A DNA stretch of 24,063 bases from a virus. Numbering within the stretch: position 1 is the first letter of the stretch; every line of letters starts with the position of its first letter. Below are positions 2 to 20,480 of the stretch, piece after piece. The stretch covers positions 1 to 24,063 of the IMG/VR virus record IMGVR_UViG_3300011407_000002, one strand, 5' to 3'. Under the pieces are notes generated by a model. That model searched no databases, had not been told where the DNA came from, and saw only the letters and a program-made list of their open reading frames with translations. A program made the translations under genes and the position numbers.

Positions 2-1552
2 GTCAACCCGAACGGGTCGTACCACGATCAGCTCCTGCACTGCCCCGCGAACGCCCCCGAGAAGCAGATCGACATCCCGGCCCGCCTTGTCGCCTCTCCG
101 ACCGATCTGGCGAAGGACCTTCAAGAGCACGGCGTCGCGCTCCGTAACGTGCCGAAGTTCGCCCTGTGGATGGTCTGCTCGGAAGAAATCTACTCGGCGT
201 CGAAGAAGCCCCCGTCCATGTCGTTTGAACAGTTCGGCTGGAATTCCAAGGGGTTCTTGTGGGGCGATCGGCTCTTGACGCCAGCCGGAACGGAGCGGCC
301 CCGCATCCCGCCCGCGCTCGGGCAACGAGTGAAGCATTTCCAGCCGCAAGGCTCGCTGGAGAGCTGGAAGGGAGCATCGCAAGCCCTGCTCTCCGAGAAC
401 TTCCCGCTCCAGCGCCTCGCCTTGCTCGGCAGCTTCGCCGCGCCCCTGATGCCCATTATGTCCCCCGACGAAGGCGGAGCGGTCCTGCATTTCGTGTCGG
501 CCGATTCCGGGACGGGTAAGAGTACAGGCCTCAAAGTCGCCGCCTCGGTATGGGGGAACGCCCTCGGGCTCCAATGCACGCTCGCCGACACCAAGGCCTC
601 GACCGGAATACAGTGGGGGATGCTCGGCAATCTGCCTCCGATCTTCGACGAGCTGGTCATGCGCAAGGCGGACGAAGCCGAGAACCTGCTTCGCCTCTTC
701 ACAACGGGCGTCGATAAGGCCCGCGCCGCGCGGGACGGGGAGGGGCTGCGCAAGGCGTCCTCGTGGAACACGCTGATGATCTCGGCCGGCAACGCCTCGC
801 TGGTCCATACCGTCACCGCGGCCTCGAGGTCGAGCGCCATGGCGGAACGGGTGCTCGAATTCGAGGTCGAGATGCCGCCCGTCTCGTCCATGGACTTGCT
901 GCGAGGGCAGCGGATGCGGAACCAAGTGCAAGCCAATTGCGGGCACGCCGGGCTGCTCTACCTTCAGGCGCTCGTCGCGCAAAGAGCGGGCCTCCGTGAG
1001 TCCATGGAGACCCTGGAGGCTGTCTTGCGGGAGATGTACCCGCAGTGGGGGTCGAACCGGCGTTACTGGCTCCGCGCGCTCTCGGCGATGCTGCTCGGGG
1101 GCAATCTCGCGAACAGCTTGGGGCTGATCGACTTCGACCCGATGGGGGTCGTCGAGCACGCCGCGAACCTGCTCGATACCCGGCACGTCGCGGAAGGCCG
1201 CAAGCCCGACGCCGAGGAACTGCTGGCGACCTACCTGGACGCGCATCTCGTGCAAACGCTAGTGGTCGAGCAGTTCGGCGGAAGCATCCGGGTGGTCGAG
1301 GCTCCGCACGGCGACTTGCTCATCCGCAAGGACTTGACTGGCACATGCCAGATTTCCAAGGTTCACTTCCGCAACTGGCTCTCTTCGCGCGACCAGAACC
1401 CCGACAAGGTTGTGCAGGCGTTGAGGGATCGGGGAAGCATGGCCTCGCACGATCGCCGCGCCTATCTCGGCGCGGGGACGCAGTTCACTGGGGGGCAGGT
1501 TCATGTCCTGGAATTGACGCTTTCAGCTTCTCGAACTCCAGCTTCAAGCTAG
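2..1552 (+). CDS. DUF927-type P-loop ATPase / replicative helicase-like protein (5' partial)
   Basis: The reading frame is open from base 2, so the true start lies left of the window; 516 residues are visible. Counting from the edge, there is a Walker A motif GTGKST at residues 170-175, a Walker B-like PPIFDE with D216-E217, and a sensor-1-like SAGN with N264. This layout, and the stretch just before Walker A, match the DUF927/Cch-like helicase family. In phages and mobile elements that family often sits behind a primase domain and acts in replication initiation. Any primase domain would be outside the window. It is the only plus-strand gene here and converges on the late region, as expected for a replication gene facing a structural operon. 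Its last 68 bases overlap the end of the minus-strand gene at 1485. ATPase assignment is firm; the helicase role is inferred from the family. Confidence 0.85.
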   Translation, partial: VNPNGSYHDQLLHCPANAPEKQIDIPARLVASPTDLAKDLQEHGVALRNVPKFALWMVCSEEIYSASKKPPSMSFEQFGWNSKGFLWGDRLLTPAGTERPRIPPALGQRVKHFQPQGSLESWKGASQALLSENFPLQRLALLGSFAAPLMPIMSPDEGGAVLHFVSADSGTGKSTGLKVAASVWGNALGLQCTLADTKASTGIQWGMLGNLPPIFDELVMRKADEAENLLRLFTTGVDKARAARDGEGLRKASSWNTLMISAGNASLVHTVTAASRSSAMAERVLEFEVEMPPVSSMDLLRGQRMRNQVQANCGHAGLLYLQALVAQRAGLRESMETLEAVLREMYPQWGSNRRYWLRALSAMLLGGNLANSLGLIDFDPMGVVEHAANLLDTRHVAEGRKPDAEELLATYLDAHLVQTLVVEQFGGSIRVVEAPHGDLLIRKDLTGTCQISKVHFRNWLSSRDQNPDKVVQALRDRGSMASHDRRAYLGAGTQFTGGQVHVLELTLSASRTPASS

Positions 1553-1847
1553 CCCAAGCGGTCAGATCGACTTGGGTGCGAAGCCGGTTCTCGTCCACCT
1601 TCAATTGCGCGTCGATCACCTTGGAGGCGGCGAGGTTCTTCGCCTTCACCACGGTGTCGAACACATCGTCGGACGTGTCGGGGAGGTGCAAGTCCAGCAC
1701 CCTCTCGAGGTGGGCGAGTGCCTTGGGGACAAGAACATCGGCCAGCTTCTGCGCGGGCGTTAGCTGAACAACATCCCGGTCGCGAACCCCTTCGCCTGGA
1801 GCTCCGGGAGCTGACGGGAAAGGCGACGGCCAATATCCGTCCTCCAC
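1485..1847 (-). CDS. small helical protein of unknown function, last gene of the late region
   Basis: The C-terminal 90 or so residues look like a genuine protein: two or three charged amphipathic helices, with a segment around KVDENRLR that resembles small phage proteins sometimes found near terminase genes (weak memory-based resemblance only). The start is unclear. No ATG lies in frame near the stop of the ATP-grasp gene at 1760; a GTG at 1847 would give 120 aa with an 88-bp overlap, and a GTG at 1700 would give 71 aa, but neither has a convincing ribosome site. The 3' end overlaps the convergent plus-strand ATPase gene by 68 bp. It could be a small DNA-packaging or regulatory factor, but no function can be assigned. 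Confidence 0.5.
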   Translation of the reverse strand: MEDGYWPSPFPSAPGAPGEGVRDRDVVQLTPAQKLADVLVPKALAHLERVLDLHLPDTSDDVFDTVVKAKNLAASKVIDAQLKVDENRLRTQVDLTAWASLKLEFEKLKASIPGHEPAPQ

Positions 1848-3058
1848 ATGGCGGAGTTTGGAATAGTGAGGCCGTTCAAACGGGCGTAGGCCGCCTCCCT
1901 CGCGCCCTGCACCGTCGCGCTTGTCCCCGTCGCGACCAGGATGTAATCCCCCGCCGTCACGATCAGCTTTTCCTTTCCCTGGCAGGTCTCCACTTCGCCC
2001 AGGGAGCACTCGCACAGATGGAGGTTCTGCCAATTCCGGGTCGTTATGCCGAAGATCGGGACGCCGACGACTTCTTTTTTTGTCAGGTGGGAGTACGGGT
2101 AATCCGGAATCGACAGCACTACCCCCACCGCCACCTTGCTTTCCGAAAACAAGTCGAAGGGCTTCCCCTGGGTTAAAGTCATCATCCACTCGATGAAATC
2201 CCCGTTGTAGAGAGCGGCCTGGATATTCGTCGTGGGCCACCCCGAGCGCATCGTGAACTCCAGGGGCCATGGCTTGCCCTTGTCGTCGATGATGCAGTTC
2301 ACGTCGATGTTACCGCAATAGCCGATCGCCTCCAACTGAGGGGTCAAGGGGCGAAGCATCATGTCGGCCAGCTTCGATTTGCGCACGAAGCGCATGACGG
2401 TGCCCTGCTCGCCGGTGTTGCAGCCGAGGTCGCCGTTCATCAACTTCTTGAACTCCCAATTCTCCTCGAATTGTCGATGCCAGCCGCCTGGCCCGAACCA
2501 CCCCGAGACGGCCATCTCTGTCCCGCCGACGAAATCCTGTAGGATGAATGCCTCTTTGAGCGTGTCCGCCTTCTTCCATCGGTTGAGCATGTAGATCAGG
2601 TCATCGGGCGACTTCGACACGTAGGAGAGGGACTTGTTCTCCCCGCCCGTCTTCGACACGTAGCGTTTCAACGTCTTCTTCACGTGCCGGATCGCGGCGT
2701 CGTAATCGGTGAATTCCTTGCAGGGCAAGGTGTCGATCTTCGCCTTGCGCAGCACGGCGTCGCCGACGGTGCGATCGGTCTCCCACGCCGCCTGCTCTCG
2801 GGTGCAGCCGATGAAGGGAATGCCCTTGCTCTGGCACTGCTCGGCGGCGCGAAGGTATTTGGTGTTCGACGGGAAGTAGACCAGATCGGCCCAGTTCAAC
2901 CAAGGCTGCCAGTCATCGACCCGTTCAACCAATCCCTTACCGATCTCGGCGAGGCGGGGGGTCGAGTGAAAGTACCATTTGACTTGATGGCCCTCTCGCA
3001 TCGCGCGCAGTGCAACATCGAGCGCGAGCGCGCCGTCGTCGATAATGAGGAGTCGCAT
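1760..3058 (-). CDS. PurD-like ATP-grasp ligase (phosphoribosylamine-glycine ligase fold)
   Basis: A 432-aa protein with the order of PurD: a Rossmann-like N-terminus (MRLLIIDDG), an ATP-grasp core with FVGGTE (E181), the signature GDLGCNTGEQGT at 209-220 matching the GD-GpNTGgmG block of GAR synthetase, and a C-terminal metal/substrate loop EFTMRSGWPT at 267-276. In bacterial PurD that last block reads EFN-RFGDPE, so N has become T and the D/E pair is lost. An ATP-dependent ligase is well supported; true glycinamide ribonucleotide synthesis is doubtful, and the acceptor may differ. Start chosen at 3058 because AGGA lies 7 nt upstream; the frame stays open further up but reads as non-protein. 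It overlaps the winged-helix gene before it by 163 bp. An alternative role is amino-acid ligation to a nucleotide or a base-modification precursor. Confidence 0.8.
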   Translation of the reverse strand: MRLLIIDDGALALDVALRAMREGHQVKWYFHSTPRLAEIGKGLVERVDDWQPWLNWADLVYFPSNTKYLRAAEQCQSKGIPFIGCTREQAAWETDRTVGDAVLRKAKIDTLPCKEFTDYDAAIRHVKKTLKRYVSKTGGENKSLSYVSKSPDDLIYMLNRWKKADTLKEAFILQDFVGGTEMAVSGWFGPGGWHRQFEENWEFKKLMNGDLGCNTGEQGTVMRFVRKSKLADMMLRPLTPQLEAIGYCGNIDVNCIIDDKGKPWPLEFTMRSGWPTTNIQAALYNGDFIEWMMTLTQGKPFDLFSESKVAVGVVLSIPDYPYSHLTKKEVVGVPIFGITTRNWQNLHLCECSLGEVETCQGKEKLIVTAGDYILVATGTSATVQGAREAAYARLNGLTIPNSAMWRTDIGRRLSRQLPELQAKGFATGMLFS

Positions 3059-3321
3059 GGGATGATCCTGACGTAGCCCCCGGAGCACTCCAGGGTCGAG
3101 CCCACCGCCTCCAGCCGGCGACGAAGGGACATGAGCCGCACCCGGATGTCGCCCAAGGCGGAGTTCGGCCCGCCTTCGGGGAGGTCCCCCCAAACGATGT
3201 CGAGCAGCTCGGGGATGGTTCTTGCCTTTATCACGAGAGCCGTGGCGATGCGAAAGAGCTGCTTGGAGAGTTTCACCCCGCCGAGGGTGCGGGTTTTGAA
3301 GTTCGCGACCGTACCGATCAT
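2896..3321 (-). CDS. OmpR/PhoB-type winged-helix DNA-binding protein, no receiver domain
   Basis: The 141-aa product has, in residues about 18-86, the pattern of a Trans_reg_C winged helix: LLDIVWGDLP, then a recognition-helix region with IRVRLMSLRRRLE and the closing hairpin GGYVRI. There is no receiver domain with a phosphorylatable Asp, so it is a stand-alone DNA binder, perhaps a late-gene or host regulator. Its start ATG overlaps the TGA of the preceding small membrane protein gene (ATGA), suggesting translational coupling. The last 50 or so residues lie over the start of the ATP-grasp gene in another frame and look low in protein character, so the real C-terminus may be a non-conserved tail. 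Family call is from motif reading only. Confidence 0.6.
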   Translation of the reverse strand: MIGTVANFKTRTLGGVKLSKQLFRIATALVIKARTIPELLDIVWGDLPEGGPNSALGDIRVRLMSLRRRLEAVGSTLECSGGYVRIIPCDSSLSTTARSRSMLHCARCERAIKSNGTFTRPPASPRSVRDWLNGSMTGSLG

Positions 3322-5888: not shown

Positions 5889-6769
5889 GCCGTGATCTTG
5901 CTCGGCTGCTTCGGGGGAGCAGGAACAGGCGGCATCTGCGCGGCCATAGCGTCGCCGCGCTGGCGCATTTCGATCATGTCGGCTTGCGCCGCGGTGCGGG
6001 TCGAGTACAGGTCATCCGCCAACTGTCCGACCTGCTCTGCGTGCGTCACGGCGGGCTCGACCGGAACCTGCCGCCCGCGCAAGTCGCGCACGGTCCGAAC
6101 GGTGTTGCTGACCCCCGAGCCCGCAATCGCGCCGGCAACGCCGCCCAGGAGCGCCCCCGGCGTGCCGCCGATGTCCGCGCCGGCCTGCGAGCCCGCGCCT
6201 ATAAAGCCGGCCTGGAGCGCCTTGCGCGCGACGCTCTGCGGCCCCATCGCAACAAGCGGGACCACTTGCGCGATTGCCCCGAAATACTTCCCCGGCGTCG
6301 TTTGCGGCGTATGGACGGGCAAGCCTTTCGACTGCGCGTAGCCTTCGATGTCGCTGGTCGTGGGAAGCTGGAATGCCGGCTTCGTGCTCTCCGCGACCTT
6401 GCCCCCGAGCGCGCGCACGATCGGGCTCACTGTGTGCTGGAGCCCCCATTCGACACCTTGCCGGCCGAGCTCGGGAATGTCGCCGAGCATCCCGGGGATC
6501 GACATGACGCCGCGCGCGAGGCTGGAGCCTACCGACTTGGTAATGTCCTCTGCATAGGACATTTGGCGTTGCGCAGGGGGCGCGTTCGGGGTAGAAAGGG
6601 CCTGTCGCGTTGGGTTGACTGTCCCATGTGACGTTTCCTCTCTAGACTTCGGGTCGCCTTGTGCGACCCCTTTTTTTGGCACGAGGTCGTCGAACCTGCC
6701 CCCTTTCGAGGGCACGAGGTCGTCGAACGCCCCCTTCTTCTGGGGCACCAGGTCGTCGAACATTCCCAT
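5714..6769 (-). CDS. FDDLVP-repeat virion protein, N-terminal part
   Basis: The first 34 residues hold three FDDLVP repeats with an 11-residue period, a feature of the N-termini of long phage virion proteins. A Pro/Ser linker follows, then helical and Gly/Ala-rich segments near residues 190-220 (GALLGGVAGAIAGSG) that look like glycine-zipper membrane-active helices. The last ~60 residues (after about 290) are strongly basic and read like an out-of-frame translation; they overlap the next 754-aa frame. The real protein most likely changes frame near a C5 run at 5913-5917 and continues into that frame. The ATG at 6769 lies 3 nt after the stop of the previous gene. A role as an ejected internal virion protein is inferred. 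Confidence 0.7.
   Translation of the reverse strand: MGMFDDLVPQKKGAFDDLVPSKGGRFDDLVPKKGVAQGDPKSREETSHGTVNPTRQALSTPNAPPAQRQMSYAEDITKSVGSSLARGVMSIPGMLGDIPELGRQGVEWGLQHTVSPIVRALGGKVAESTKPAFQLPTTSDIEGYAQSKGLPVHTPQTTPGKYFGAIAQVVPLVAMGPQSVARKALQAGFIGAGSQAGADIGGTPGALLGGVAGAIAGSGVSNTVRTVRDLRGRQVPVEPAVTHAEQVGQLADDLYSTRTAAQADMIEMRQRGDAMAAQMPPVPAPPKQPSKITAWLRAATVPSSKPRPPGRKCRRKPRRLFKSVYTHSGSATLRSRSTLPSGSFGTHTSRH
6668..6760 (-). repeat. three FDDLVP coding repeats
   Basis: A 33-bp periodic segment encodes three FDDLVP motifs spaced by 11 residues at the very N-terminus of the long virion protein. The spacers are Lys/Gly-rich. Similar short motifs occur at the ends of very large phage proteins and may serve packing into the capsid or docking to a partner. 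Confidence 0.7.
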
Positions 6770-8038: not shown

Positions 8039-9576
8039 TACGCATCCTCTATAAACGCCGCGAACAGGTCACGTCGCGGCTGCTCCTCGACTTGCTGCCC
8101 CCAGGCTTTGCGCACCGAACCCGGCGCGCGACCGAGCAAGATATTCTCGGGGAGCGGCACCCCCTGTGCAAGCTGAATTTGCGTCGGCGGGTCTTCCTGC
8201 CCGGGCTGCATTGGCTGCTCTTCTTCGCCGCCGCCGCCGCCGTCTCCGCCACCCCCGCCGCCGTCTCCGCCACCCCCCCGGTCTTCCGTGTCGAGCTCGG
8301 CCAGCATCTGCTCGATCGTCGGCACCGGCTTGCCGCCCGAGGCCTGCGACTGCCCGGTCTCGTAGGGCATGGAAGGGGTTCCGTCTCCCCCTCGGCCCGG
8401 AGCATCCCCACCACCCTGGCTCGAGGCGAGTGACCCTTGTGGCACCGCCTCTCGTGAGAGCCCCGCCGCGATGCGCTGCGCCGCCGCGATCTCACGAGGG
8501 CGCAAGTCTTCCCTCGGGCTCTCGTACCGGTGCACGATGTCGGCGATATTATCGAGCCGAATACCTCGCCCCTTGGCCTCCGCCACGATGAAGTCGAGCT
8601 GCGTGTGAGGATCGGCCGGGTTCATGCCCCGCTTGCCCGCGAAGTCGGCGAGCAGTTTCTGGCGCGGCCCGTTGAACTGAGCAAAGCCGAACGCGCCGCG
8701 CGGATTCAACGCGCCCCCGCGCTCGCTCCCCTGCTTGCCGAACGAACCGGAATAAAGCTTGCCCCCGAACGATCGGCTTTCCGCCGCGAGAACCCCCGCG
8801 AGGCTCGACGCCTCCCGGTGATTGAGCCCCCTTCCGAGCAGCATCGTGTAAACTTGCCCCGGCGAAGCGAAGGCCCCCCCGGTCAGATTGCCCCGGTTCT
8901 CCGGCGTGAACGAATAGCTGGAGGGGCTTGCGCCTTTGGGGAGGCCCGGGTCGTTTCGTTTGTTGACGAAGGTATCGGCCGGCTTGTCGAGAAGCCCCGC
9001 GTAGCTCTTCGGGTGAACGCGATCCGCCGACAAGTTGGCGAGCGGCCCCGCGAAATTGGCATTGATCCCTTGCGCCTTGGCCTGCTGGACCATCTGAGCG
9101 AGTTGATCGTTCACGCCCCTGAAGTCCGGCCGGTCGCCGACGCCCATGACGGTGACGCCCTTCGCGCCCTTCATGGCAGCGAGTTGCTGCATGACCATCT
9201 CGAGCTGCTTCGGATTGTTGCTCGCCCCCGACGAAAGGATCACGTCCTTGCCGGCGAAGTCCTGCCCTTGCAGCGAGCCGAGCACGTCCTTCGGGGACCG
9301 GCCGACTTTCGTGAGAGCAGGGTCGAGCCCGAGCTGTTTCGCGAGACCTGCCCCGATGCTGTCTCCGACGACGAGACGCCCGCCGAGCCCGCTCGGCTCC
9401 CCGGTCCCCCGCTGCAATGTCGGCTTCGCTGGATTGGCGACGGACTCGGAGAGCAGTTGCTGGAAGCCCAAGGGCATCGACGACTGCCGATAGGTCGAAG
9501 GGTCGCCGCCCCCTACCGGAAGGTTATGGGGGTTCCGGTCCCGATAGATGTCGCCCCGCCCCTCACCTGCTCCCAC
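8038..9576 (-). CDS. SGNH-hydrolase plus lysozyme-like bifunctional virion protein
   Basis: 512 aa from a GTG at 9576, chosen because GGGGAG lies 8 nt upstream; a GTG at 9627 is an alternative with no good site. Residues about 65-195 show SGNH/GDSL-hydrolase blocks: GDS at 71-73, a block II glycine at 92, SGASNN with N120/N121, and DRVH with D185 and H188. Residues about 235-340 look like a phage tail-lysozyme domain: AAESRSFGG with E266 as likely catalytic acid, then GAFGFAQFNGPRQ. The rest is disordered and Gly/Pro-rich with Asp-Gly blocks. Such a protein would degrade peptidoglycan during DNA entry, and the esterase part may remove acyl groups from cell wall or surface glycans. The start overlaps the previous gene by 14 bp. 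Confidence 0.75.
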   Translation of the reverse strand: MGAGEGRGDIYRDRNPHNLPVGGGDPSTYRQSSMPLGFQQLLSESVANPAKPTLQRGTGEPSGLGGRLVVGDSIGAGLAKQLGLDPALTKVGRSPKDVLGSLQGQDFAGKDVILSSGASNNPKQLEMVMQQLAAMKGAKGVTVMGVGDRPDFRGVNDQLAQMVQQAKAQGINANFAGPLANLSADRVHPKSYAGLLDKPADTFVNKRNDPGLPKGASPSSYSFTPENRGNLTGGAFASPGQVYTMLLGRGLNHREASSLAGVLAAESRSFGGKLYSGSFGKQGSERGGALNPRGAFGFAQFNGPRQKLLADFAGKRGMNPADPHTQLDFIVAEAKGRGIRLDNIADIVHRYESPREDLRPREIAAAQRIAAGLSREAVPQGSLASSQGGGDAPGRGGDGTPSMPYETGQSQASGGKPVPTIEQMLAELDTEDRGGGGDGGGGGGDGGGGGEEEQPMQPGQEDPPTQIQLAQGVPLPENILLGRAPGSVRKAWGQQVEEQPRRDLFAAFIEDA

Positions 9577-17807: not shown

Positions 17808-18131
17808 TCACGAGTGCACCCAACTCGGGTTCGCCGCACCGGCCGCGCCCGACACTAGGATCGGCCAGCCGGTTTGCGTGTCCACGGCCACGAAGTCGCC
17901 CTGGAACACTTTGAGAACCCCGCGCCGCGGAACATAGAGGAAGCCGTTCTTAGCGAAGGCCTGCGTCACGAAAGTCCCGCCGACCAAGCCCTCACCCGCG
18001 GAACCCGAAACCGGGATGTCCACTTTGATGAGTGCATTGATCGACGCCATGTCCGCGTCGAGAGCAACGTGCGAGAAGGCGAGGGCAGTCAGCGAGTTAT
18101 TCGCCGTGGTTCCCATGGTAATAGTTGACAC
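17808..18131 (-). CDS. small putative capsid decoration / head protein
   Basis: 107 aa from a GTG at 18131 with AGAGGG 7 nt upstream; the ATG at 18116 would shorten it by five residues. The product is beta-rich, low in charge and without cysteine: NNSLTALAFSHVALDADM, then VDIPVSGSAGEGLVGGTF and a Tyr/Pro/Arg turn. It follows the major capsid gene by 16 bp, the usual place for a capsid decoration or minor head protein. No specific family recognised. Confidence 0.6.
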   Translation of the reverse strand: MSTITMGTTANNSLTALAFSHVALDADMASINALIKVDIPVSGSAGEGLVGGTFVTQAFAKNGFLYVPRRGVLKVFQGDFVAVDTQTGWPILVSGAAGAANPSWVHS

Positions 18132-18147: not shown

Positions 18148-19515
18148 TTAGCCGAATGCGCCGGTATTGGAGGCGGTGCTTTCGATGCGCATGAAGAACT
18201 GGTTGTTCTTGATGAGCGTCGCGTAAAACACCTTCCAGCCGATAACCCTGATCTGGTTCAAGGGGTCCGACTTGTCCGCACTGAACAGCCCTACGATCTG
18301 GACGTTCTGGAGCTCGATCTGGGTGTAAGCACCCTTGCCGAAAATGAACGTGGGGTAAACCGTGATCCCGTTCGCATTGCCCGGGAACGCAGGGGGAACC
18401 TGCGCGACGCCGATCCCGGTGATGAACACTGTCGTGCCCCCCGGAAGCTGCGTCGCCTGCCCGAGCAGCGGGCCGGAAGCCGGGCCCTGCGGGCTCACCC
18501 CGAGGTTCACAGGGGAGGTCGTCGTGCCGATGTAAACGTTGAAGGTGAAGCCCGGCGCGTTGTTCGGCAGGGTGACGGCGATCGACCCGTTCGGGCCGGT
18601 GACGGACTGCGCACCCGAGACCGTGTAAATGCGGCTCTCGAATTGGTTCTGCGTGTCCACGCCGGTGACGATGATCCGGTAGCCGGCGTTCGTCGCCAGC
18701 GAGCCCGAATTGCCCGGCACGTAGGCCAGGCCACCGTCGTTGTTCGCGAACCCGGTGAAGCTCGGAATCATGTTCGACCGGCAGAACCGAACCCCGTTCA
18801 GCTCGCCGAGCTCGTTGTTGTAAATCTTGTTCAGGTCCGAATAGGACCATGCGGTCGTGACTGTCGCGTCCTCGCGCATGTCCGCTTCGACAAACGGATG
18901 GAGCATGGCGACATAGTGCTGGTTCGTGCGCGGGTTCGACGAGGACTTCGCCCCGCCCGAGCCGGCGTCGATCTTCTGGTCCGTCCTCTCGTCGCCGAGA
19001 TAGAGCGGTGCGCCGAGGTTCAAGAGCAGCGCGACAGCGCGCTGGACTTCGTGCCGGTTCATATAGTCGGCAGCCTGGAGCGCCGGCCGCGACCCGCGTG
19101 AGTTCACGAAGTTGACCTGCGTACCGCCGAGCAGGTTCACGATGGTGTTGCGGTCGAGCGTTTCCGCGATCTGGTAGCCCATGACCCGCTGTGCTTGCTT
19201 GACGAGCGGGTGCTTGATCGTCAGCTCGGCGACGTCGGTGAGCGTCACCTTGTCGCCCCACTGTTGGGCGACCGCCGATACCTGCTGGATCGACATAGTT
19301 TGCCCGACTGGAGGAACCGCTTCCGAGAGCGGCGCATAGGGCAGGGGAAGCCGCAAGAACCTCGTCATCGTAAAGGTCGTGCCGCGCCCCTCCGGCATCG
19401 ACTCCATGTCGCCGAACTGGTAGAAAACGAGCTGGCGCTGCGCCAGATCGAGGGTCTTGTCCGCGATAAAGTTCTCGATGTCCGCGGAAAAAGACGGCGC
19501 GACATTGACCGGCAT
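18148..19515 (-). CDS. major capsid protein, N4 gp56 family
   Basis: 455 aa. The N-terminal arm and E-loop region hold RGTTFTMTRFLRLPLP and VTLTDVAELTIKHPL. The body has YVAMLHPFVEADMRED and GELNGVRFCRS, and the end has IRVIGWKVFYATLIKNN. This order matches the HK97-fold N4 gp56-type major capsid family. Residues about 262-375 form an extra Gly/Thr/Asn-rich beta domain that looks like an inserted Ig-like or jelly-roll surface domain. AGGAG lies 8 nt before the ATG. The scaffold gene lies 36 bp upstream, the expected partner. It should form the capsid shell. Family call is by motif reading. Confidence 0.88.
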   Translation of the reverse strand: MPVNVAPSFSADIENFIADKTLDLAQRQLVFYQFGDMESMPEGRGTTFTMTRFLRLPLPYAPLSEAVPPVGQTMSIQQVSAVAQQWGDKVTLTDVAELTIKHPLVKQAQRVMGYQIAETLDRNTIVNLLGGTQVNFVNSRGSRPALQAADYMNRHEVQRAVALLLNLGAPLYLGDERTDQKIDAGSGGAKSSSNPRTNQHYVAMLHPFVEADMREDATVTTAWSYSDLNKIYNNELGELNGVRFCRSNMIPSFTGFANNDGGLAYVPGNSGSLATNAGYRIIVTGVDTQNQFESRIYTVSGAQSVTGPNGSIAVTLPNNAPGFTFNVYIGTTTSPVNLGVSPQGPASGPLLGQATQLPGGTTVFITGIGVAQVPPAFPGNANGITVYPTFIFGKGAYTQIELQNVQIVGLFSADKSDPLNQIRVIGWKVFYATLIKNNQFFMRIESTASNTGAFG

Positions 19516-19551: not shown

Positions 19552-20337
19552 TCAGAAGCGCACGCGCGATAGCCGCTCTTCACGTTGCTCCAGCGTTTCG
19601 GCCCTGCCGCCCCCGCGAGAGCGGGCCGGAGCTACATCGTTCCGCCCCCCGCTCGGCGCGGCAACCCTCTGCCGCTGCACCCCCGGGGAGGCCGTCCTGG
19701 TCTTTCCTTGCCTCTTTTGAAGCTGTTCCTGCCCGAACAGGTAGGTGAAAATCGCCTCCCTCGGTAGAAACTGCCCGCTGTTCAACCTCTCGTAGAACGT
19801 CGCCTCTACTTGTGCCTGCATCCGGCGCATGTCCGCGTCCGCGGCTGCTTTCGCCAAGTAGGTGTTCTGGTCCGTCATAATGTGCTGCTGCAACTGCATC
19901 CGCTGCATTGCAGTCTGGTGCTGCTGCTCCGACTTCCTCAGCCGGTACTCGATCTGCTGCTCGAACGGCAGAGACGCGACTTCCAGTTCCTCTTGCCGGC
20001 GTGCCTGCTCCTCTTGCTGCTGGCGCAGCCCCATGGTCTGCTGCTCGCGCAGCGCGGCCAGTTCTCGTTCCAGTGCGACCGCCCGGGCCTGCTCGAGCTG
20101 TGCTTGCTGCTCCAGCTTGGCCCATCGCCTGTTCAGGCGTTCCGATTTCCCTCTCGCATTGGGTTCGCTAGGGGCCTCCGGTTGATCTTCGAGATCAAGG
20201 TCTTCGGCTCCACCGTCTGTGAGGTCGCCTTGTTCTCCGAGGTCATCGTCTTCGATGGCACCTGGAGGCAGCGGGGGGTCTTTGTCGAGGACTTCACTCG
20301 GGATTCCTCCAAGCGGATCGAGGTCGTCGATTGCCAT
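19552..20337 (-). CDS. capsid scaffolding protein
   Basis: 261 aa with the typical scaffold layout: an acidic, Pro-rich N-terminus (residues 1-65, many Asp/Glu), a long Gln/Glu/Arg coiled coil (about 70-175), and a basic C-terminus rich in Arg/Gln/Gly, probably the capsid-binding end. It is the first gene after the promoter/repeat gap and is directly followed by the major capsid gene. GGGAG lies about 7 nt before the ATG. A scaffold guides prohead assembly inside the shell and leaves before maturation. There is no protease motif. Confidence 0.85.
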   Translation of the reverse strand: MAIDDLDPLGGIPSEVLDKDPPLPPGAIEDDDLGEQGDLTDGGAEDLDLEDQPEAPSEPNARGKSERLNRRWAKLEQQAQLEQARAVALERELAALREQQTMGLRQQQEEQARRQEELEVASLPFEQQIEYRLRKSEQQHQTAMQRMQLQQHIMTDQNTYLAKAAADADMRRMQAQVEATFYERLNSGQFLPREAIFTYLFGQEQLQKRQGKTRTASPGVQRQRVAAPSGGRNDVAPARSRGGGRAETLEQREERLSRVRF

Positions 20338-20349
20338 TTCACTCTCCCA

Positions 20350-20443
20350 GCGGATAACGTCCGCAAGACGCGCAGGCTTTGACGGGGCCGAACCGGGCAG
20401 ATTACGTCTGCCGGACGCGCAGGCTTTTACCGGGGCCGAACCG
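20350..20443 (-). repeat. two tandem leader repeats with covarying hairpins (period 47 bp)
   Basis: Two copies of a unit lie between the promoter and the scaffold start. Each has a conserved block of about 29-30 bp (20367-20395 and 20414-20443) and a short dyad. The dyads, read on the minus strand, are GCAGA-CGTAA-TCTGC (within 20396-20412) and GCGGA-CGTTA-TCCGC (20350-20364). An A-T pair in one is a G-C pair in the other, so pairing is kept while the sequence changes. This points to RNA hairpins in the 5' leader, or to tandem protein-binding dyads. It is the most conspicuous non-coding structure in the window. Confidence 0.75.
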
Positions 20444-20450
20444 TTGAAAC

Positions 20451-20480
20451 AGAATATCGTTCAGTGCTTGTTCTCGTCAA
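20451..20480 (-). promoter_or_regulatory. sigma70-like promoter of the scaffold-capsid transcript
   Basis: On the minus strand TTGACG (20480-20475) is followed after 18 nt by TATTCT (20456-20451). The -35 matches the consensus at five of six bases and the -10 at four. It sits in the only sizeable non-coding gap of the late region. The predicted transcript start near 20444 would put both tandem repeats in the leader. Spacing is one base above the optimum. Confidence 0.55.

Follow-up and report, generated by a model that had tools for sequence, protein, structure and literature searches.

A small covarying hairpin repeated in the scaffold–capsid leader of an uncultivated phage family recurs in unrelated phages

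The leader of the scaffold and capsid genes in a 24,063-base IMG/VR virus record (hereafter the window, analyzed over its full length) is a cis-acting RNA array made of copies of one small hairpin. The same element extends beyond capsid mRNAs: many unrelated phages carry it, as a single copy or as a tandem array. Few phage genes are expressed as strongly as those for the capsid, and to our knowledge it has been worked out in only a handful of model phages how their messages are favored. In the present case, a single short, strongly covarying hairpin makes up the capsid-operon leader in an uncultivated phage family and recurs before tRNAs, non-coding RNAs (ncRNAs), and unrelated capsid genes.

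The hairpin array of the scaffold–capsid leader

The promoter, the hairpins, and the scaffold and capsid genes all lie on the minus strand of the window, where the leader occupies a gap of ~150 nt between the start of the scaffold gene (20337) and the end of the next upstream ORF (about 20490). A sigma70-like promoter, TTGACG-18-TATTCT (20451–20480), is spaced from the first unit as in most relatives; an alternative −10 element, GATATT with a 16-nt spacer, can also be read. The position of the −10 box predicts a transcription start at 20444–20446. The leader contains a 38-nt direct repeat, 82% identical, with its copies 47 bp apart (20350–20387 and 20397–20434), and includes the dyads GCAGA-CGTAA-TCTGC and GCGGA-CGTTA-TCCGC. 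An earlier note, made from the sequence alone, had described a promoter followed by two repeated units with dyads. Both are present, and the units match, beyond chance, a covariance model derived solely from relatives and excluding the window's own units. This model scores U2 (CGTCCG-GCAGA-CGTAA-TCTGC, 20397–20417) at 24.0 bits (E 1e-4) and U4 (CGTCTT-GCGGA-CGTTA-TCCGC, 20350–20370) at 26.9 bits (E 1.5e-5), the E-values being rough owing to a shortened calibration, and it finds nothing else in the whole 24 kb better than E 0.15. U4 sits 12 nt upstream of the scaffold start codon, and the ribosome-binding region TGGGAGAGTGAA (20338–20349) lies between the two.

Two further, degenerate units, which the model leaves unscored, probably complete the array. 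U1 (CGGTTC-GGCCC-CGGTAA-AAGCC, 20422–20443) begins 26 nt before U2 and 7–9 nt after the −10 box, as first units do in relatives, and U3 (CGGTTC-GGCCC-CGTCA-AAGCC, 20375–20395) keeps the phase between U2 and U4, its stem having three pairs and a C-A mismatch at each of the other two positions; the CGTCA loop closed by a mismatch also occurs in two relatives, L010 and L024. Layout, spacing, and the distance to the −10 box suggest that U1 and U3 are true units, in which case the window leader probably comprises four units spaced 26, 22, and 25 nt, compared with a family mode of 24–26 nt. The two 47-bp units of the earlier note are a real repeat, but the conserved block of 29–30 bp described in each is better read as a further, weaker unit of ~24 nt. 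The window leader alone folds no better than shuffled sequence (z +1.2), so the evidence for the hairpins is comparative rather than energetic.

That comparison draws on 80 related contigs gathered with the capsid protein, most of which have a TTGACA-type promoter followed, ahead of the scaffold start, by one to three copies of the unit. The unit consists of a single-stranded CGAYUK flank, a 5-bp stem of free sequence, and a pentaloop, which among 116 distinct units reads CGTAA in 59, CGTTA in 29, and CGGAA in 17 (CGUAA, CGUUA, and CGGAA in the RNA). In a set of 63 distinct units, preselected for at least four of five pairs, every one of the five stem pairs shows changes on both sides, and 97.1% of cells are paired, compared with 60.2% after shuffling and 27–52% when one side is slid. 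Because these units were selected for pairing, we also counted pairs without demanding them: among the 197 motif matches to leader regions, four or more pairs form in 151 and all five in 118, whereas the corresponding counts for reverse-strand matches, used as a control, are 18 and 0 of 76. Tandem matches in IMG/VR, found with a pattern that left the inner three pairs free, pair at 578 of 612 inner cells, and at 530 of 564 in more scans with duplicates removed. The top ranks of mutual information are exactly the five stem pairs, and the covariation includes G-U pairs. First stems surrounding a constant CGTTA loop, for example, read GCCGG/CCGGC (L048), ACCAG/CTGGT (L066 and L075), GCTGG/CCAGC (L068), and ATCGG/CCGAT (L069).

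The compensatory change that the earlier note saw between the two dyads thus reappears in relatives as covariation throughout the five-pair stem, next to a fixed flank and loop. Leaders that keep the flanks and lose the dyads are not the rule; most relatives maintain pairing as the stem changes. This covariation backs the proposal of a structured RNA leader at the predicted transcript start of the scaffold–capsid operon. In predicted folding energy the leaders are unremarkable (mean z −0.34), and the median pair probability of the units is 0.53. A search by mutual information for a pseudoknot between loop and flank returned weak associations of flank position 3, none of them Watson–Crick. We also rejected the idea that stems within one leader are kept different, as a guard against cross-pairing or recombination, since 6 of 88 pairs are identical where 4.9 are expected.

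The architecture is regular across 79 distinct leaders, a set that includes a distant phage with chance matches (L159), and its units repeat every 24–26 nt. Relatives carry one to four units, which start at the predicted transcription start; the first mostly begins 7–13 nt past the predicted −10 box, and the last stem mostly ends about 10–20 nt before the scaffold start codon. As the array spans the predicted transcription start to near the start codon, the 5′ UTR would consist almost entirely of hairpins. Across 20 relatives, whole or partial, model matches with E<0.01 fall only in the scaffold–capsid leader. Among distinct tandem sites in IMG/VR, 88 of 94 precede scaffold and capsid genes, three are cut by a contig end, and three lie elsewhere, in collection scans by pattern that favor canonical units and draw on many near-duplicate contigs. 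The canonical unit is absent from 12 of 59 distinct leaders, one of which belongs to a distant phage with 28% capsid identity (L160); in most of these 12 exceptions variant hairpins remain, their loops including UCGUAA, CCGUAC, UCGUAU, and ACGCAC. One family member, L083, has units with six-base loops (YCGTAA) instead of five.

The leader opens onto a scaffold-like gene of 261 aa (19552–20337), whose product in relatives has an acidic N-terminus and a basic, Arg-rich C-terminus, followed by the gene for the major capsid protein (18148–19515), which belongs to phrog_1357 and matches Phage_capsid_4 weakly, below the Pfam cut-off. Directly past the capsid gene, on the same strand, a small protein of 107 aa (17811–18131) is encoded, as it is in all seven compared relatives. 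It has a conserved core, PNRG...PGDY...GWPI, and a predicted model with pLDDT 78; weighed as a binder of the hairpin, it has no family match, and it is possibly a decoration protein. Elsewhere in the window, a PurD/GARS-like ATP-grasp protein (1760–3058, minus strand), with GARS_C and GARS_A both slightly below Pfam cut-offs, has relatives in five of the seven other family members compared, and a DUF927 protein (149–1552, plus strand) is transcribed against the late genes. A sub-threshold Rfam match to the suhB/mmgR sRNA (6616–6684, plus strand; 37.8 bits, gathering 41, E 1.3e-4) encloses a terminator-like hairpin with a T-run (6651–6669), antisense to the late genes.

The unit outside the scaffold–capsid leader

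Copies of the unit are found in several other settings. One pair of units precedes the scaffold gene of L206 and a second pair its capsid gene, and in L188 a tandem pair follows a TTGTCG-17-TACGAT promoter, 105 nt before a distant capsid gene of phrog_1357. An 89-kb phage contig (L189) carries five units within about 1 kb of non-coding RNA genes, an array that also holds Proteo-phage-1 RNA and tRNA-Tyr. In isolates, the two units of Burkholderia phage Mica (L215) lie past its integrase gene in a non-coding region, where a long stem immediately follows each of them (fold z −5.6); Bordetella phage PHB04 (L223) has one unit 11 nt before tRNA-Pro (34.6 bits), and the single unit of Pseudomonas phage IME307 is intergenic. 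Isolate phages yielded only three convincing matches, and five distant isolates (MW202477, MW202637, OR838459, OR779980, and MK533143) have no units. The E. coli genomes searched gave no match, and of four matches in genome contigs one was real, a phage contig in a MAG.

Single units are more widespread. The single-unit pattern CGACTNGCNGCCGTAAGCNGC, which represents one common version of the unit, matched at least 120 IMG/VR contigs. Among the matches listed, the free stem positions are complementary at 98 of 98 distinct sites, and sites before start codons cluster at a distance of 18–35 nt, several of these units being accompanied by SD-like sequences. The pattern read backwards is absent from the loci examined. 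Single units precede unrelated capsid genes of phrog_3437 (L232, L246, and L293), as well as genes for a glycosyltransferase, a Cas4-type exonuclease, and SSB, and further copies precede tRNAs and structured RNA. At sites lacking a nearby gene, a fold z<−2 is found on the 3′ side of the unit in 22 of 71 cases, compared with 8 of 71 on the 5′ side (p=0.01). On these modest statistics, the units stand on the 5′ side of an RNA segment at the places examined. At L295 5919–5939 the unit is directly followed by a T-run, so the hairpin there looks like an intrinsic terminator.

Several RNAs came to light beside these sites. Mica (2495–2750) and L189 (8236–8500) share a homologous ncRNA domain that folds strongly (z about −5.5), is apparently unannotated, and in both cases has a unit in front of it. 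About 50 nt of this domain form a core also present in three Schitoviridae phages, Piffle, Paxi, and PB119; in Piffle and PB119 the core lies in tRNA arrays that, unlike Mica, have no units. The tRNA array of PHB04 includes a permuted tmRNA (1462–1833) with the tag ANDDYIRAAA, around which the phage's gene table lists no RNA genes.

Candidate roles of the array

Only the flank and loop of the unit are fixed while the stem is free, which points to recognition by a protein, and the presence of the unit in unrelated phages makes a host factor or RNA polymerase likelier as the partner than anything specific to one phage. We propose that copies of the hairpin form nearly the whole scaffold–capsid 5′ UTR, from the transcription start to the ribosome-binding site, and that flank and loop would be read by a protein, probably a factor shared by the phages' hosts, with copy number setting the strength of the effect. 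The unit would control the fate of whatever segment follows, be it mRNA, cistron, tRNA, or structured ncRNA, a reading that we favor because the places examined lie 5′ of an RNA segment. A protected or processed 5′ end would make abundant RNAs, the capsid message for example, long-lived. That the element is a factor-recognized hairpin 5′ of RNA segments, acting on their stability or processing, is a tentative view to which we give somewhat less than an even chance. Counting against stability, a purely stabilizing hairpin needs no conserved loop and flank; placements near ribosome-binding sites are also compatible with translational control, and those at the start site and in RNA arrays with antitermination.

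Much of the leader's layout would suit a translational operator, at which a protein, for instance free scaffold or capsid protein acting autogenously, binds the hairpins by the ribosome-binding site and represses or enhances synthesis of scaffold and capsid. The last stem mostly lies 10–19 nt before the start codon, inside the ribosome footprint, the scaffold start is where 88 of the 94 tandem sites are tied, L206 repeats the unit pair before its capsid gene, and several single units stand 18–35 nt before start codons with SD-like sequences; the basic, Arg-rich C-termini of the scaffold proteins could be added to this list. A capsid-specific autogenous ligand cannot explain all uses, however, since the unit is also found before tRNAs, in untranslated RNA arrays, and before such unrelated genes as those for the glycosyltransferase, the Cas4-type exonuclease, and SSB, and we judge this account rather unlikely. 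Antitermination would instead have the nascent hairpins bind RNA polymerase, either directly, as put RNA does at the beta-prime zinc-binding domain, or through a factor, as at nut/boxB, and so permit read-through of terminators and Rho sites. The array does begin where transcription is predicted to start, much as putL closely follows PL (PMC9378689), and untranslated RNA arrays need protection from Rho. But the downstream late region has no excess of intrinsic terminators (16 found, 16.2 expected), put consists of two long stem-loops of about 70 nt rather than 5-bp hairpins (PMC9378689), and single intercistronic units right before ribosome-binding sites would be left unexplained. We consider antitermination unlikely as the function of the unit.

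Two further explanations fare worse. The hairpin might be a mimic or sponge that titrates or misleads a host RNA-binding protein, such as a Cas6-like nuclease, in the manner of RNA anti-CRISPRs; a 5-bp stem with a pentaloop resembles the repeat hairpin of type I-F CRISPR systems. Racr repeat units, too, are solitary and intergenic, and they often follow a promoter directly (PMC10651486). A mimic would be expected to preserve the repeat sequence, whereas here the stem sequence is free within one leader and among close relatives, and only about a dozen positions are conserved, which makes such mimicry very improbable. Since the dyads adjoin a promoter, the earlier note had also offered them as paired operators for a winged-helix protein encoded at 2896–3321, a proposal that finds no support. 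The arms of the unit vary and its center is fixed, the opposite of a DNA operator; the changes in the stem include G-U pairs; the hairpins run downstream of the promoter as far as the ribosome-binding site; and the winged-helix ORF is not among the genes common to at least three of the seven compared relatives. This ORF lies on the minus strand, overlaps the 5′ part of the ATP-grasp gene, and has no Pfam or PHROG match. DNA operators, whether for this protein or for another DNA-binding regulator, strike us as scarcely credible.

Control of the following RNA segment by a factor that reads the hairpin can be put more broadly, as a portable phage RNA tag: one mini-hairpin placed 5′ of the RNAs that a phage needs most, with one host- or polymerase-associated factor treating all of them alike. 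The RNAs so tagged would be capsid mRNAs (in tandem), other cistrons, tRNAs, and ncRNA domains. We regard this broader reading as close to evenly balanced between right and wrong. If it is true, the unit would belong to a previously unrecognized layer of post-transcriptional control in uncultivated phages. The partner of the hairpin could reveal a shared host factor exploited by phages, and the unit could find use as a small RNA part.

Comparison with known RNAs

The covariance models of Rfam 15 gave no match at the units of the window, of 12 relatives, or of L189 and L215, and a literature search for capsid leaders with tandem hairpins found none. The hairpin is apparently an undescribed phage RNA signal, although an element missing from Rfam 15 and from the literature searched may still have been described. 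With no Rfam match in the tested records, no occurrence in the E. coli genomes, and few in isolates, it may have been overlooked.

Among phage elements, the boxB hairpin of the lambda nut site is also a 5-bp stem with a pentaloop in a leader, its loop being GNRNA. Unlike boxB, the present unit has C at loop position 1 (116 of 116 distinct units, a count that is not independent because C was in the search motif), and no boxA is evident; nor does GNRNA fit CGTAA or CGTTA, the loops of U2 and U4 in the window, or the variants seen in the exceptional leaders. Sites for CsrA/RsmA differ as well, with GGA in a hairpin loop, a triplet seen in only about 17 of the 116 distinct units. Proteo-phage-1 RNA (RF03044) is another phage ncRNA and shares the L189 array, but it is a separate RNA of 82 nt, and its match there (8590–8672) falls between the units, not on them.

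Like the put RNA of HK022, the array is a cis-acting set of tandem hairpins just after a phage promoter, as at putL (PMC9378689). The two long stem-loops of put, about 70 nt, form an RNA triplex (PMC9378689), whereas here the stems are of 5 bp and a repeated consensus recurs with a period of 24–26 nt. Racr elements, found in many phages, are solitary intergenic repeat units that often follow a promoter closely (PMC10651486); they keep the host repeat, stem included, unlike the stems here, which are free and vary within one leader.

The Guanidine-II (mini-ykkC) riboswitch shares with the array tandem, GC-rich mini-hairpins with CG in the loop, located in leader RNA (PMC5486947). It has an ACGR tetraloop, a conserved loop-proximal stem, and a linker mostly of 13 nt or more (PMC5486947), in contrast to the CGKWA pentaloop, free stems, and linker of about 9–11 nt found here. 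Leader targets of ANTAR proteins (EutV, NasR, and AmiR) present two small stem-loops to a single protein (PMC3369931). They differ from the present array in their hexaloop with A1 and G4, where we find the pentaloop C-G-K-W-A, and in number, since up to four units occur here. The overlap with a terminator that characterizes ANTAR targets is not seen, the capsid leaders examined having no U-tract, because the last unit abuts the ribosome-binding site. The two resemble each other in other respects: in both, loop residues are fixed, stems are free, and the linker is short (5–12 nt in ANTAR targets, about 9–11 nt here).
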